Shown here one piece after another: positions 20,976 to 27,275 of a stretch of 64,000 nt of DNA. Both the position numbers and the translations under genes were made by a program. How positions within the stretch are numbered: the first letter of the stretch is position 1; the number at the start of each line of letters is the position of its first letter. Below the pieces are notes generated by a model. The model saw only the letters and a list, made by a program, of their open reading frames with translations, was not told the origin of the DNA and searched no databases. Source of the stretch: Rubripirellula tenax (GTDB lineage Bacteria; Planctomycetota; Planctomycetia; Pirellulales; Pirellulaceae); contig NZ_SJPW01000004.1 in NCBI RefSeq assembly GCF_007860125.1, positions 218,372 through 282,371 of the forward strand, given 5' to 3'.

Positions 20976-23900
20976 ATGTTCTTGCTAAAGCAGTCCACGC
21001 ATCGGATGCTGATCCAACACGATCCGGACATCGGCCATCGATTCGTTCCCAATCAAAATGCACGGCTGACGAACGAGGCCGGTGGCTATTTTGTCAAGAC
21101 AAACTCAACCGGTTTTCGTTCGGACGTTGAGTTTGCCAAGCCGAAGTCGGATCGGCCGCGAATCTTAATGTTTGGTGATTCTTATACCGCGGGTGACAAC
21201 GTATCGAATTGCGATCGCTATTCCGATCAATTGGCAAAGCTTCACGGATGCGAGGTCTACAATTTTGGAATTTCCGGAAGCGGAACGGACCAGCACCTTT
21301 TGGCATTTCGCAAGTTTGCCAAAGATATTGAAGCCGACGCGATTGTCATTTGTGTGCAGATCGACAGCTTTCACCGAATTCAAACATCGCATCGTCCTTC
21401 GGTAGACCGAATCACGGGGCAACGCGTTCGAGTGCCCAAGCCCTACTTCGAACTCAATGAAGGCAAGTTGGAACTATGCCAAGTGCCCGTTCCGACCGAT
21501 CGACCCAAAGACGACACTGGCTCACAAGCGGCTTCTAGCAAACGAGACGACGATCTTATCAACAAAGTCCACGACTTGTATTCGATGGTGCCGGGACTGA
21601 AGGAACTGCGGAACTCGTCATTGCTTTCGGACGCGGGATCGCGTTTGATCACCGAGTTCAAAAGGATACGAGGTCACCACCCTTATCCCGATATCCTTTC
21701 CGATCAAACGGCCGGGTGGAGATTGATGGAAGCTATCCTTCGTCAATTCATCGCAGAAGTCCAACCATTGCCGGTTGTCATTTTCCCGATTCCGACGCGC
21801 GACTTTTATCTTGTCGGAATGGAACCGGTGTACCAGACACTGTTCGAGAAACTCGATTCGCCTGAACACAACGTTCACGTCGGCGATGTTTCGACAGAGT
21901 TAGGGAAACTCCCTTACCAGGAACGCTTGAAACTGAGCTTCGAACAGGGTGGCCACTTCACACCCTATGCGAACAACTTAGTCGCGAAAAAAATGGATTC
22001 GTTTTTGACCAAGCGGAATATCGCCATCGTTGCGGATGCTGCGAAGGATCAGACGCAGGCGTCCGACTCTTCACCGGTTTTGCCGGATCGAACGACGTCC
22101 AATCAGGGTGAATATATCCTGGGCGTGTCGTGCTTCTATCACAATTCGGCGGCGACGCTGTTAAAAAACGGCGAGATCGTTGCGGCGGCTGAAGAAGAAC
22201 GATTCAGTCGCGTCAAGAACGATCGACGGTTCCCCGTGAACGCAATCAACTTCTGTCTAGAACAGGCTGGCATCAACCAGGACCAAGTTTCGGCGGTATC
22301 ATTTTATGACGATTCGGCGTTGACGTTTGAACGAATCATGCACAGCCTGATGGCGATCGACGTTGAGTCGGCGCGGAAAATGTGGGCGACGATTGTCCCT
22401 GACTGGGCGCGATCCAAACTTCATCTTCCGAAACTGGTCCGTGACGCGATGTGCTTTGAAGGGCCGGTGCTGCAGGGCAACCACCACCGTTCGCACGCGG
22501 CAAGCTGCTTCTTTCCGTCGCCGTTCGAATCTGCAGCCGTGATCACGATTGACGGTGTGGGCGAATGGGCAACCGCATCCATCGCACACGGTCAAGGCAA
22601 CTCGATCAAGATGTTGCGCGAGATGACGTTTCCGAATTCACTTGGCTTGCTGTATTCGGCGTTCACGCACTTCACCGGGTTCAAGGTCAATTCGGGTGAG
22701 TACAAGATGATGGGCCTGGCTCCCTATGGCCGTCCGATCTACACGCAATTGATTTTAGACAACATCGTTGACTTGAAAGAGGACGGATCAATTGAGTTGA
22801 ACATGGAATATTTCGCGTTTCTTAGCGATGTTAGCACGACATCGAAGAAATTTGACGAACTATTCGGAGGCCCTCGACGGGATCCCGAGAGTCGGATTAC
22901 CCGTCGCGAGATGGATCTGGCGCGATCGATTCAAGAAGTGACCGAGATGGCGATGATTCGCATGGCTCGGCACGCACGCGAACTGACCGGCGAGTCTCGT
23001 CTCTGCTTGGCCGGCGGAGTGGCGCTAAACTGCGTCGCCAATGGAAAGCTGCTAAAGGAAGGCGTGTTCGACGAAATTTGGATCCAACCGGCTGCGGGGG
23101 ATTCAGGATGCGCGCTGGGTGTTGCGCTGGATACTTGGCATACCTATTACGGGCAACCTCGAAAAGAACGCAGCGAATTGTCGGATCAAGGCGGTTCGTA
23201 TTTGGGCCCAGGTTTTTCCGGCGACGAAGTCAAGGCTTACTTGGACACGCACGGCTTCCCCTATCGCGAACGGACCGGCGACGATCGGAACCAGTTTCTC
23301 GCCAAACAGTTGGCCGATGGCAAGGTCGTTGGGCATTTTTCGGGCCGACTAGAATTTGGTCCAAGGTCACTGGGGGCTCGCTCGATTCTTGGCGATGTTC
23401 GCAATACCGAGATGCAGACGACGCTGAACCTGCGGATCAAGTATCGCGAGTCTTTTCGTCCATTTGCGCCGGCAGTGTTGCACGAGCGCGTGTCGGACTA
23501 CTTTGATCTTGACCGCGAAAGTCCATACATGCTGCTGGTCGCACCAGTGAAGGAAAGTCGCCGAATTGCGATCGAGCTAAAGGACGAAGACGTCGACCAG
23601 GATTTATTGCCGATTGTCCGTCAGTTGCGATCGGATATTCCCGCCGTTACGCACGTCGACTACTCGGCTCGCATCCAATCGGTGCGACGCGAACACCATC
23701 AAGCCTTTTACGATCTGATCAAACAGTTTGAAAAAGACACCGGCTTCGGCGTGCTGGTTAACACTTCATTCAACGTTCGAGGCGAACCGATCGTGTGTAC
23801 GCCCCAGGACGCTTACCGATGCTTCATGCGAACCGAGATGGATATCCTGGCTCTGGACGACTGCATCTTGGTGAAGGGCGAACAGCCTGAGTGGCCCGAG

Positions 23901-24323
23901 GGCAAAGGCGAAGGACTTGAGAATGAAGACGTCTATGCTGTGCCTCAGGCCAAGCCGACGGATCCATATCACGAACAGATCGCCAAATTGTTCGAATCAT
24001 CGTTCTGGCCCGAAGCAACGAAAGCGAAAAGCCAGGGCATGGCGATGGTGTCGGTGGACACGCCGCCCAAACGAGCGAGCACCTGGTCGGATACATCGAC
24101 AACAGACACAGCTCGTGAAGAGTTTGAATTCGCGTCGGCACTGACGAATCCAGACGCCAACGCGTCGCTGGTCGCCGCCGCGGTTGTGTCACGATGGCGA
24201 GATCAAAAAGTGGGGCGATTGCTTGAACCGACCGTCGCAAAAATCTTGCAGGTCGCATCGAAGCATCCGGTCGACGAAGACCAAGCGGCGGAAATTTCAG
24301 AGTCCGTCTACGTGATGTTCTAA
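20976..24323 (+). CDS. SGNH-domain/carbamoyltransferase fusion (NodU/CmcH family)
   Basis: An 1115-residue two-domain protein. Residues about 60-345 form an SGNH/GDSL-type domain with FGDSYTAG (Ser69), YNFGISGSGTDQ and a C-terminal catalytic pair GGHFTPYAN (His327). From about 381 follows a full carbamoyltransferase: ILGVSCFYHNSAATLL, the metal-binding GNHHRSHAA (about residues 501-509), ITIDGVGEW, and the YrdC-like C-terminal half with SGRLEFGPRSLGARSIL and NTSFNVRGEP. A further 130 residues at the end match nothing I know. The carbamoyltransferase family uses carbamoyl phosphate and ATP to O-carbamoylate sugars or antibiotics. The SGNH half could be an esterase or transferase acting on the same polymer. 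It has no signal peptide, so the protein is probably cytoplasmic. Confidence 0.9.
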   Translation: MFLLKQSTHRMLIQHDPDIGHRFVPNQNARLTNEAGGYFVKTNSTGFRSDVEFAKPKSDRPRILMFGDSYTAGDNVSNCDRYSDQLAKLHGCEVYNFGISGSGTDQHLLAFRKFAKDIEADAIVICVQIDSFHRIQTSHRPSVDRITGQRVRVPKPYFELNEGKLELCQVPVPTDRPKDDTGSQAASSKRDDDLINKVHDLYSMVPGLKELRNSSLLSDAGSRLITEFKRIRGHHPYPDILSDQTAGWRLMEAILRQFIAEVQPLPVVIFPIPTRDFYLVGMEPVYQTLFEKLDSPEHNVHVGDVSTELGKLPYQERLKLSFEQGGHFTPYANNLVAKKMDSFLTKRNIAIVADAAKDQTQASDSSPVLPDRTTSNQGEYILGVSCFYHNSAATLLKNGEIVAAAEEERFSRVKNDRRFPVNAINFCLEQAGINQDQVSAVSFYDDSALTFERIMHSLMAIDVESARKMWATIVPDWARSKLHLPKLVRDAMCFEGPVLQGNHHRSHAASCFFPSPFESAAVITIDGVGEWATASIAHGQGNSIKMLREMTFPNSLGLLYSAFTHFTGFKVNSGEYKMMGLAPYGRPIYTQLILDNIVDLKEDGSIELNMEYFAFLSDVSTTSKKFDELFGGPRRDPESRITRREMDLARSIQEVTEMAMIRMARHARELTGESRLCLAGGVALNCVANGKLLKEGVFDEIWIQPAAGDSGCALGVALDTWHTYYGQPRKERSELSDQGGSYLGPGFSGDEVKAYLDTHGFPYRERTGDDRNQFLAKQLADGKVVGHFSGRLEFGPRSLGARSILGDVRNTEMQTTLNLRIKYRESFRPFAPAVLHERVSDYFDLDRESPYMLLVAPVKESRRIAIELKDEDVDQDLLPIVRQLRSDIPAVTHVDYSARIQSVRREHHQAFYDLIKQFEKDTGFGVLVNTSFNVRGEPIVCTPQDAYRCFMRTEMDILALDDCILVKGEQPEWPEGKGEGLENEDVYAVPQAKPTDPYHEQIAKLFESSFWPEATKAKSQGMAMVSVDTPPKRASTWSDTSTTDTAREEFEFASALTNPDANASLVAAAVVSRWRDQKVGRLLEPTVAKILQVASKHPVDEDQAAEISESVYVMF

Positions 24324-24383: not shown

Positions 24384-25937
24384 ATGCTATTCAATTCATA
24401 CGAATTCATCTTCTTGCTTTTGCCGATTGCTTTTCTGGGCAATCGGTTGCTGGCAGGGCGGTACAATGCTCGAGTCATCTGGCTGCTGGCGTGTTCTCTG
24501 TTCTTTTACGCATGGTGGAATCCGATCTACCTGCCACTGCTGTTGGCGACCGTTGGTTTCAACTACACCGTTGGCAAAAAACTTTGCGTTAGCCGAAACA
24601 AACAGTTGCTGGTGCTTGGGGTCGCCGCAAATCTTTGTTTGATTGGCTATTTTAAGTACGCGAATTTTTTCGTTCAAAGCGTGACCAGCCTTGGTGGCGG
24701 CGAATTCACTTTGGGGCAAATCGCTTTGCCTCTGGCCATTTCATTTTTCACCTTTCAACAGATTGCGTATCTGGTCGATTGCTATTCGGGGGTTTCAACG
24801 GGTTATCGCCCGATGGAATATGCGTTGTTCGTCAGTTTCTTTCCGCAACTGATCGCCGGCCCCATTGTTCATCACGCGGAAATGATGCCACAGATTCGCG
24901 TTCCATCGCGTCGGATTCGCGAAGACCTGTCGGTGGGACTCACCATCTTCTCGATTGGGCTGTTCAAGAAGGCGGTGCTTGCCGACGGGATCGCTCCTTA
25001 CGCCAACTCGCTCTTTGACAACGAATCTGCTTGGCACTCCGTTACGTTCTTTCATGCTTGGATTGGCTGCCTCGCGTATGGGCTGCAGATCTACTTTGAC
25101 TTTTCGGGCTACTCGGACATGGCCATCGGTGCGGCAAGAATCTTTGGGATCAAGTTGCCGCTAAACTTCTTCGCACCTTATCGATCCGAGACGATCAGCG
25201 ATTTCTGGCGACGATGGCATATGACGCTTTCACATTTTCTTCGCGACTATTTGTACTTTCCGCTGGGCGGGAATCGGAAAGGCACGCTCAATAGATACCG
25301 AAACCTGATGATCACGATGCTGTTGGGTGGGCTGTGGCATGGTGCCGGATGGACGTTTGTCTTGTGGGGGCTCTTGCACGGCGGCTTTCTTGTTGTGCAA
25401 CACGGCTGGAGCCACATGACACGCGGCATCATTGGGTGGAAGGGACGCCCGCCGTATCGGATGGCCGCTTGCGCAGTCACGTTCGTCGCGGTCCATTTCG
25501 CTTGGGTCTACTTTCGCGCGGGCTCACTGGACTCTGCAAACGAAGTGGCCCGAGGAATGGTGGGCATGAACGGAGCTGCAATTCCGGACGCCATTTTCAA
25601 CCGGCTAGGTCCCTTGGAGACGCCGCTGGGCATCTTGGGCATCGGTGAAGACACCGCAAGCGGTTCATTGTTTGTTGCTGCGATCACTTGGATCACCGCA
25701 CTTTTGACAATCGTATGGACGATGCCAACGACCCAACAATTTATGATCCAGCACGAACCCGCGTGGGAGTACGCTAACGTCGAACACATGCAGACGCTTC
25801 CAAGCCCAGGTGTCGGCTGGCAAGTGCCCCTGACATGGAAGCCAACGTTAGGGTGGTCGATCGTGATCAGCTTGATTTCTGTGGCTGGAGTTCTGTCGCT
25901 CGCCGAATTGTCTGAGTTTCTCTACTTTCAGTTTTAG
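24384..25937 (+). CDS. MBOAT-family membrane O-acyltransferase (AlgI-like)
   Basis: A 517-residue polytopic protein that should move acetyl groups across the inner membrane for polymer O-acetylation. AlgI/DltB hallmarks are FFPQLIAGPIVHH, SDFWRRWHMTLSHFLRDY, FPLGGNRKG and GGLWHGAGWTFVLWGLLHG with the invariant His319. It begins MLFNSYEFIFLLLP, the standard AlgI N-terminus. Immediately downstream is an SGNH protein suited to be its AlgJ/AlgX-type partner. Substrate is inferred as the polysaccharide of this locus. Confidence 0.93.
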   Translation: MLFNSYEFIFLLLPIAFLGNRLLAGRYNARVIWLLACSLFFYAWWNPIYLPLLLATVGFNYTVGKKLCVSRNKQLLVLGVAANLCLIGYFKYANFFVQSVTSLGGGEFTLGQIALPLAISFFTFQQIAYLVDCYSGVSTGYRPMEYALFVSFFPQLIAGPIVHHAEMMPQIRVPSRRIREDLSVGLTIFSIGLFKKAVLADGIAPYANSLFDNESAWHSVTFFHAWIGCLAYGLQIYFDFSGYSDMAIGAARIFGIKLPLNFFAPYRSETISDFWRRWHMTLSHFLRDYLYFPLGGNRKGTLNRYRNLMITMLLGGLWHGAGWTFVLWGLLHGGFLVVQHGWSHMTRGIIGWKGRPPYRMAACAVTFVAVHFAWVYFRAGSLDSANEVARGMVGMNGAAIPDAIFNRLGPLETPLGILGIGEDTASGSLFVAAITWITALLTIVWTMPTTQQFMIQHEPAWEYANVEHMQTLPSPGVGWQVPLTWKPTLGWSIVISLISVAGVLSLAELSEFLYFQF

Positions 25938-25943
25938 GAAACC

Positions 25944-27275
25944 ATGCAATCGCAAGATGAAACAGCCGTGACCGCCCGAACGAATGCCGATCGTCACCCG
26001 TCCTATTCGAAATACCTCGGGCAATGGCTGTTGGTGGCTCCTCTGCTGCTTAGTATGGTCGTTGCGTTCAACGTGTCGGTCGATCCGTACATTCGATTCG
26101 CCACTTCGCGAGTTGAAGGGTGGAACGCAAAAAAGCCGAAAGCGATACGGCAAGTTCGCATGACGAAGGCGTACGGAGTCGCCCGCGGCAACTTCAAAAT
26201 GCTGCTACTCGGAAATTCGCGCGTCGATATTGGATTCGATCCAAGCAGCAGCGCGATGCCGAGCCGCTTCCGACCTGCGTACAACCTTGGGCAACCCGGT
26301 GGCGGCACCGAACTTGCAACGCAATATCTTCAGCACGCCCTTGTGACTCAAACGCCAGACGCGGTCCTTCTAGGCGTCGACTTTCTCAACTTTCTTCGCA
26401 AGCCCGAACACTTGATCGACGCGTCAATCGATCCTACCGAAAATGAGCCTAGCTCTGCCCCGGATAGTCGACTGCTTTCTCGGCAAGGTGGCCCTACGCC
26501 GCTTGCAGCACTGAAGTCGCGTGCAAGTGACATGGTCGCGTCGACGGCCTCTTTGACAGCCCTTAAAGACTCGATGATTACGGTCGCCGAACAACGTTCA
26601 CCATTCACGGCCGACATGTCCGACGAGGGCTTCAATTCGGGGATCGCTTTTCGTCAGCTGATTCGCGACGAAGGGCAAGCGGCGCTGTTTCGACAAAAGA
26701 ACATCGAGTATGCCCAAAAATGCCTGACGCGTGTTGCGCCTGCAATGGATCGGTCAACTGAACTACTTGCCGTGGAAGCGGTCTTGGAAGCCTGCCAGAG
26801 TGATGACATACACATCGACGTATTCATCCATCCTTACCACGCCGATATTCTCGAAATCTTTGACGAGGCAGGACGATGGGATGATTTCGAGCGATGGAAG
26901 TCGTCGTTGACCGATCTGTGCAATCGATACGATGTGTCGCTCTGGGATTTCTCCAGCTACAACAGCTACACCACAGAGCAGACACCGACACCAAAGGACA
27001 AAAAAACCGTCATGAAATGGTATTGGGAGTCCGGCCATTACCGCTGCGAACTTGGTGACCAAATTCTTTCGACGATCTATTCGAACTCGAGTGTTGCGGC
27101 AAGACCAGTTGCGAAACGTCCGTTTGCTAAACGGCTGACACCACAAGTGTTCGAAGACTGGATAGAAGCCATACGGCAGGGCCAACAAGCCTACGCTCAA
27201 CAATTTGCGTCTTCATCGCAGCGAGCGCGTGGCCTTGTTCAGAACCTCACAGCGAAAGCAGACACATCGCCGTGA
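25944..27275 (+). CDS. Membrane-anchored SGNH-like protein (AlgJ/AlgX-type partner)
   Basis: A 443-residue protein with one N-terminal TM helix (about residues 30-52) and a periplasmic SGNH-type domain. The nucleophile block is LLLGNSRVDIG (Ser92) and the catalytic His is in WESGHYRCELGDQI (His365). A NLGQPGGGTE loop carries the oxyanion glycine. This layout matches the AlgJ/AlgX/DltD-like group that receives acetyl groups from an MBOAT protein and transfers them to a polymer. It starts 6 bases after the MBOAT stop and ends in a GTGA overlap with the next gene. The family is divergent, so the exact subfamily is uncertain. Confidence 0.72.
   Translation: MQSQDETAVTARTNADRHPSYSKYLGQWLLVAPLLLSMVVAFNVSVDPYIRFATSRVEGWNAKKPKAIRQVRMTKAYGVARGNFKMLLLGNSRVDIGFDPSSSAMPSRFRPAYNLGQPGGGTELATQYLQHALVTQTPDAVLLGVDFLNFLRKPEHLIDASIDPTENEPSSAPDSRLLSRQGGPTPLAALKSRASDMVASTASLTALKDSMITVAEQRSPFTADMSDEGFNSGIAFRQLIRDEGQAALFRQKNIEYAQKCLTRVAPAMDRSTELLAVEAVLEACQSDDIHIDVFIHPYHADILEIFDEAGRWDDFERWKSSLTDLCNRYDVSLWDFSSYNSYTTEQTPTPKDKKTVMKWYWESGHYRCELGDQILSTIYSNSSVAARPVAKRPFAKRLTPQVFEDWIEAIRQGQQAYAQQFASSSQRARGLVQNLTAKADTSP

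Follow-up and report, generated by a model that had tools for sequence, protein, structure and literature searches.

Three modules in one reading frame

A 64,000-nucleotide stretch of the Rubripirellula tenax genome (referred to here as the window; RefSeq assembly GCF_007860125.1, contig NZ_SJPW01000004.1, positions 218,372 to 282,371 of the forward strand) contains a long open reading frame (ORF) at positions 20976-24323 of the + strand. The ORF joins an SGNH module, a class III O-carbamoyltransferase (CT) module, and a small module with a tyrosine tail, and is the one-chain form of a widespread three-gene cassette that encodes an SGNH protein, a CT, and a small Tyr-tail protein. A first-pass annotation had described a single 3.3 kb frame fusing an SGNH domain to a complete carbamoyltransferase. 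There is indeed one ORF, which starts with ATG and encodes 1115 aa without an internal stop, and the fusion is borne out by Pfam, AlphaFold, and Foldseek. The AlphaFold model of the full-length 1115-aa protein has a mean predicted local distance difference test (pLDDT) score of 87.8 and a predicted template modeling (pTM) score of 0.91. It was built from a 73-row alignment (A5) in which SGNH rows were shortened until clean and which includes no free-standing small-module row. The best Foldseek matches to the whole-protein model are GdmN, TobZ, NovN, and VtdB.

The CT module covers residues 379-972 (22110..23891, +) and has Kae1-like and YrdC-like halves, as recognized by Pfam, sequence matches to GdmN and TobZ, and Foldseek. 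Pfam assigned Carbam_trans_N to residues 381-718 (E 6.5e-82) and Carbam_trans_C to residues 776-967 (E 1.3e-69), and the NodU profile matched the ORF partially. When aligned to GdmN, with residue roles from a published description (PMC9633730), His389 (22140..22142, +) is equivalent to the catalytic His27 and the conserved His503 (22482..22484, +) to the iron ligand H133. The other iron ligands, His507 (22494), Asp526 (22551), and Asp709 (23100), all on the + strand, are also present. With both Pfam domains and all of these residues, the CT is complete, as the annotation had held, and the ORF is a class III O-carbamoyltransferase whose activity is predicted. The CT module shares the whole CT fold of GdmN, TobZ, NovN, VtdB, and NodU (NodU by the partial profile match), and the iron and base residues of GdmN; the structurally known class III CTs act on small molecules, and PDB sequence matches cover only the CT part of the window protein.

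The SGNH module covers residues 1-350 (20976..22025, +). Pfam found Lipase_GDSL at residues 63-123 (E 2.8e-6), a weak match but above the cut-off, and Lipase_GDSL_2 fell below its cut-off. Searched by sequence against the PDB, this part gave marginal matches only. AlphaFold produced a good model of residues 1-349 (pLDDT 87.8, pTM 0.86), and its best Foldseek match is CgnD of crocagin biosynthesis (E 8.4e-8), followed by many GDSL esterases; both results support an SGNH fold. The block I nucleophile, Ser69 in GDSYTAG (21180..21182, +), and His327 are each invariant in the 49 aligned SGNH rows. Position 325, two before the His, is D in 40 of these rows and G in nine, all nine of them fused and including the window protein. 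The triad Asp is counted as lost because the window protein reads Gly325-Gly326-His327 (21948..21956, +) where unfused relatives read D-x-H. In addition, the GGH proteins carry Ser in place of the block III Asn seen in unfused rows, here Ser131 (21366..21368, +). The annotation had taken both GDSYTAG and GGHF as intact; this stands for the catalytic Ser and His and fails for the block V Asp (G325) and the block III Asn (S131). Two fused relatives (L057 and L068) retain the triad Asp, and unfused rows in which the blocks are visible retain the Ser, the block III Asn, and D-x-H. Ser-His dyad SGNH esterases that lack the Asp are known (PMC9487903), so a GGH-type SGNH domain could still be active. 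No relative turned up when viral contigs were scanned with the SGNH alignment, and a viral origin was rejected.

The small module covers residues 996-1115 (23961..24320, +) and ends in the hexapeptide S-V-Y-V-M-F (24303..24320, +), in which Tyr1112 (24309-24311) is the proposed carbamoyl carrier. The annotation had set aside about 130 residues here as being of unknown nature; they are instead a third module, which is a separate gene in most relatives and, where free-standing, lies just after the CT gene. The C-terminal 120 residues have no match in Pfam or PHROGs, a search of the module against the PDB found nothing convincing (best E 0.033), and two free-standing relatives have no match in NCBIfam. 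AlphaFold predicts a mainly helical module.

The tail was counted in 58 of 69 rows, with ten near-copies and one tail-less protein (L057) set aside. Tyr is at position -4 in 58/58 kept rows (58/59 when L057 is included), and the consensus is -F-[VI]-Y-x-M-[FY]. Of the 58 rows, 56 have Met at -2 and 57 end in Phe or Tyr at -1; position -5 is Val, Ile, or Leu in all 58, and position -6 is Phe or Tyr in 43. Among the well-filled columns of the small module, the Tyr at -4 is the only invariant residue. In its strict version, the motif closes 60 of the 69 small-module ORFs and none of the other 7803 ORFs (60 aa or longer) in the 76 loci; in a looser version, it closes 61 of 69 and four of 7803, two of these four being MBOAT proteins. 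By sequence, the tail matches the C-terminal FXYXXF-like acyl-shuttle motif with its invariant Tyr, with S at -6 in the window protein.

Hydropathy, computed for the N-terminal 70 residues of 74 SGNH proteins and for 63 small modules, revealed no transmembrane-like stretch, a result obtained without a dedicated transmembrane or signal-peptide predictor. The highest 19-residue means are 1.24 (SGNH, first 70 residues) and 1.41 (small modules), and whole SGNH proteins reach 1.84.

A three-gene cassette in relatives

A five-row SGNH alignment, scanned against a single genome of each species, yielded 76 relative loci, near-copies included (L049 repeats G087 and L103 repeats G054, among others). Two are weak matches and four lie on contigs that end within 7 bases of the SGNH match, leaving 70 usable loci. 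A CT is present in all 70, fused in 11 and downstream on the same strand in 59. The 11 fused loci include two that are cut by contig ends (L050 and L068), and the CT part of L068 scores only 17 bits. The small module was detected with a hidden Markov model (HMM) in 54 of the 59 unfused loci. Contigs end early in two of the others (L072 and L087), and in the remaining three (L077, L115, and L121) a divergent small ORF that follows the CT and has Tyr at -4 was chosen by eye. Other small modules are fused to the CT (L036, L079, L082, L101, and L106). All ten cassette genomes that were searched whole have a single small-module match each.

Eight complete fused genes with a tail occur besides that of the window (L049, L051-L056, and L059), have the same module order, and span three phyla (Planctomycetota, Acidobacteriota, and Lentisphaerota). 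In the SGNH tree (71 rows), the 12 fused rows all lie to the same side of a branch with 100/100 support. These eight genes and the shared branch led us to reject a sequencing error or chance fusion; unfused relatives with separate genes do exist, but so do the other complete fusions. In the CT tree (91 rows, quick method), 51 unfused and nine fused cassette CTs and L036 are on one side of a branch with a Shimodaira-Hasegawa-like approximate likelihood ratio of 100, apart from 30 other CTs. The SGNH rows carry twelve phylum names in all, many from metagenome assemblies. Two rows with different phylum labels (L088 and L119) show branch lengths of zero, and one or both labels may therefore be incorrect.

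Within the family of R. tenax (100 genomes, its own included), one other genome (G087) matches at full length, with 66% identity. Among 392 genomes of the phylum, the small-module profile matches three, one of them the window's own, whose sequence was in both alignments, and the SGNH profile (E up to 1e-25) matches four, the same three and one more. The match in this fourth genome (L128; G484:C256:8026-8463; 102.6 bits) is partial, covering 146/360 positions within a frame of 767 aa, and the small-module profile has no match there.

One fused protein, from Nitrospirota (L057:4524-7691), has a degenerate CT (H389D, H507M, and D526G) and no tail, yet keeps D-x-H in its SGNH part. At the other extreme, the SGNH, CT, and small proteins are three separate genes in G054 and on two Paraburkholderia plasmids, and the end of the small protein resembles that of the window protein. 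A fusion in G054 was considered and ruled out, a stop separating its SGNH and CT genes. The distance between SGNH and CT exceeds 1 kb on both plasmids and in four other Burkholderiaceae loci; on one Paraburkholderia plasmid (L044:8986-10401), a weakly amidohydrolase-like ORF lies between them. The annotation knew of no characterization of this architecture, and our searches of open-licence papers likewise found no description of the cassette.

Neighboring genes

Neighbors of the fused gene in the window include glycosyltransferases, an O-antigen ligase-like protein, a MatE-type flippase-like protein, a bacterial sugar transferase, a polysaccharide deacetylase, and a DUF3485 protein, which bears out the earlier placement of the gene in a polysaccharide locus. 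In relatives, Polysacc_deac_1 is the commonest downstream family, found in 15 of 30 same-strand neighbors picked from 96 listed; no family matches more than four of the 44 upstream neighbors picked from 103. Given the surrounding polysaccharide genes, the acceptor is probably a sugar.

The next gene in the window (24384..25937, +) encodes an MBOAT acyltransferase, recognized by Pfam and ending in -FLYFQF. It is followed by a gene (25944..27275, +) for a possible SGNH-like partner of 443 aa, which has a GNSR block by eye and no credible Pfam match. The two genes (24384-27275) are possibly a second Tyr-tail acylation system directly beside the fused gene. A three-sequence MBOAT profile detected this family in six of the 76 relative loci, a lower bound because many loci are short. 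The adjoining MBOAT system that the annotation had pointed out is therefore real as a neighbor, but is not part of the cassette in general.

The window genome has two further carbamoyltransferase loci, which match the CT part alone (G000:C1:1171128-1172813 and G000:C7:491238-492953), the first with a small neighbor ending in -APFIYALF. In another locus (L036:8145-15025), a CT fused to a Tyr-tail module is followed by a GDSL-tetratricopeptide repeat protein, a second carbamoyltransferase, and a 2-oxoglutarate-Fe(II) oxygenase, possibly a natural-product version of the cassette.

A candidate carbamoyl relay and its alternatives

The arrangement recalls known acyl shuttles, of which PMC12148441 names two major systems, MBOAT-SGNH and AT3-SGNH. 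PatA acetylates the Tyr of its own C-terminal FXYXXF motif, and the SGNH protein PatB can use the acetylated hexapeptide; DltX and DltD follow the same scheme with D-alanine (PMC12148441). The cassette likewise has a C-terminal FXYXXF-like Tyr tail and an SGNH partner (PMC12148441 for the known systems), and its tail is free on a small protein, like DltX, or fused to the transferase, like PatA. It differs in that its transferase is a CT, predicted to depend on ATP and carbamoyl phosphate, rather than an MBOAT (MBOAT in 6/76 loci; AT3 not searched for), its cargo is presumably carbamoyl, and its parts are predicted to be soluble. The likeness of the small module to DltX lies in tail motif, partner, and arrangement.

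The three modules, their linkage, the near-invariant Tyr, and the intact CT residues are direct observations. Because the tail shares the shuttle spacing and mostly aromatic ends, has an SGNH partner, and occurs both free and fused, and because the transferase of the cassette is a CT, we propose a soluble carbamoyl relay from carbamoyl-adenylate to Tyr1112, to Ser69, and to a glycan. The CT would make carbamoyl-adenylate from carbamoyl phosphate and ATP, as is established for the class, and transfer the carbamoyl to the tail tyrosine Tyr1112. The flexible tail would then swing over to the SGNH module, which, via Ser69 in the cassette generally, would hand the carbamoyl on to a glycan intermediate in the cytoplasm, at a hydroxyl; this intermediate would belong to the surrounding polysaccharide pathway. 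In fused proteins that lack the Asp and the block III Asn, the Ser-His pair may act as a slow dyad or may only position the acceptor beside carbamoyl-Tyr. Such a relay would be analogous to DltB-DltX-DltD or PatA-PatB, with a soluble CT replacing the membrane MBOAT. It would be cytoplasmic because hydropathy shows no transmembrane-like stretch in SGNH N-termini or small modules. In HypF, another Kae1-type CT, there is precedent for action on the C-terminal residue of a partner, the Cys of HypE (PMC9633730); the acceptor proposed here is Tyr, and the cassette adds an SGNH partner. The joint loss of CT active site and tail in L057 is consistent with the relay, as a single case from a metagenome assembly. 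The earlier suggestion that one protein exchanges ester groups on a glycan came close to this relay; it missed the Tyr-tail module and took the SGNH blocks as intact.

Several points weigh against the relay. The tail counts are biased upward, since the small-module HMM contained the tail and three divergent ORFs were chosen by eye partly for their tails. The hexapeptide of the window protein starts with Ser, not Phe, and AlphaFold gives the tail low confidence (about 51), leaving it poorly ordered. The SGNH module of the window protein has lost the triad Asp and the block III Asn, so transfer through Ser69 is least certain in this very protein. If the SGNH and small modules are soluble, as hydropathy suggests, no relay is needed to cross a membrane. 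Finally, the transfer chemistry throughout, including the cargo on Tyr and the glycan acceptor, is something that we infer. On balance, we put the chances of the relay at about even.

Of the alternatives, the strongest is that the protein is an ordinary glycan O-carbamoyltransferase, in which the CT acts on the sugar directly and the SGNH relic does no more than bind the glycan acceptor. The small module would then serve for assembly or dimerization, its tail packing into a partner. This would fit the loss of the triad Asp and block III Asn in the fused protein and its close relatives, the requirement of GdmN for a C-terminal dimerization domain for activity (PMC9633730), and the poor order of the tail in the AlphaFold model. 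The Ser, block III Asn, and D-x-H of unfused rows with visible blocks are kept, however, which argues for SGNH catalysis. Moreover, invariance in the small module is confined to a Tyr at position -4 of a free C-terminus, which is odd for a packing domain, and the mainly helical module is unlike the GdmN domain, which is described as having central beta-sheets (PMC9633730). We consider direct transfer unlikely, though a serious contender.

A second alternative casts the SGNH module as an O-acyl esterase that frees a hydroxyl, which the CT then carbamoylates, with the tail docking both enzymes. SGNH esterases are common, Ser-His dyad esterases without Asp occur among them (PMC9487903), and Polysacc_deac_1 is found in 15 of the 30 downstream neighbors scanned. 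This reading leaves both the near-invariant Tyr motif and the likeness to the MBOAT/DltX shuttle unexplained, and appears improbable.

The small module could also be the precursor of a ribosomally synthesized and post-translationally modified peptide. Much as crocagin is made, the SGNH module would cut off its C-terminal peptide, and the CT would N-carbamoylate that peptide. CgnD is the best Foldseek match of the SGNH model (E 8.4e-8), and the crocagin cluster likewise pairs an SGNH-fold protein with a carbamoyltransferase, CgnI, and a peptide core, Ile-Tyr-Trp, that CgnD releases (PMC10070186). CgnD is described as a slow protease, and the product is a peptide natural product and not a glycan (PMC10070186). 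CgnD was absent from the PDB matches (E up to 1) of the SGNH-family sequence profile. The tail reads Y-x-M-F/Y rather than Y-W, with Tyr at -4 and no terminal Trp beside it. Among the neighbors scanned, no further peptide-tailoring enzyme was conspicuous, CgnB and CgnE not having been searched for. A precursor that is consumed would be uneconomical when fused to two enzymes; in borosins, precursor and enzyme are fused in one chain. Such a pathway is very improbable, and the crocagin link, through fold match, clustered carbamoyltransferase, and tyrosine-containing core, is a real alternative lead. Membership of the SGNH module and tail in the neighboring MBOAT acetylation system, suggested by the MBOAT gene next in the window and just downstream in L059, was already disfavored and deserves almost no credence, given MBOAT detection in 6/76 loci, the FxYFQF tails that the window and L034 MBOATs carry themselves, and a module without a hydrophobic export stretch by hydropathy.

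Among matches to the window protein, 25 CT loci were chosen, and two tail ORFs and one SxtJ were checked with Pfam. In 16 of the 25, the strand of the CT carries, no more than 1.5 kb from it, a small ORF whose ending is FIYTLF or close to it. The two checked ORFs (L037:4379-4627 and L038:8454-8762) encode DUF5989 microproteins beside planctomycete CTs, with one hydrophobic stretch and the ending -APFIYTLF, a DltX-like motif; in L037, an SxtJ-family protein precedes the microprotein. These loci differ from the cassette in the hydrophobic stretch of the microprotein and in their CTs, which lie outside the cassette branch of the CT tree. An L037-type SGNH protein, sought with a two-sequence profile, was found near just two of the 25, so DUF5989 as a membrane counterpart is a lead only.

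Taken together, the cassette may represent a third class of Tyr-shuttle glycan acylation beside MBOAT-SGNH and AT3-SGNH, a tentative proposal that we hold possible rather than probable. In this class, a soluble CT would load a C-terminal Tyr that feeds an SGNH transferase, as three genes in about a dozen phyla and as one polypeptide here, with DUF5989 microproteins as the membrane counterpart. DUF5989 is not named in any paper of the open-licence literature searched, and the proposal would provide a testable idea for this family. The small protein, which in the window lacks any Pfam match, would gain a function as well. The one-chain form lends itself to study, as a single protein would carry the whole proposed relay. 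If the relay is true, Tyr-tail acyl shuttling, described so far for the MBOAT-SGNH and AT3-SGNH membrane systems (PMC12148441), would be of general use, extending to carbamoylation and needing no membrane, and the cassette points to a route, not described before, by which sugars may receive carbamoyl groups.

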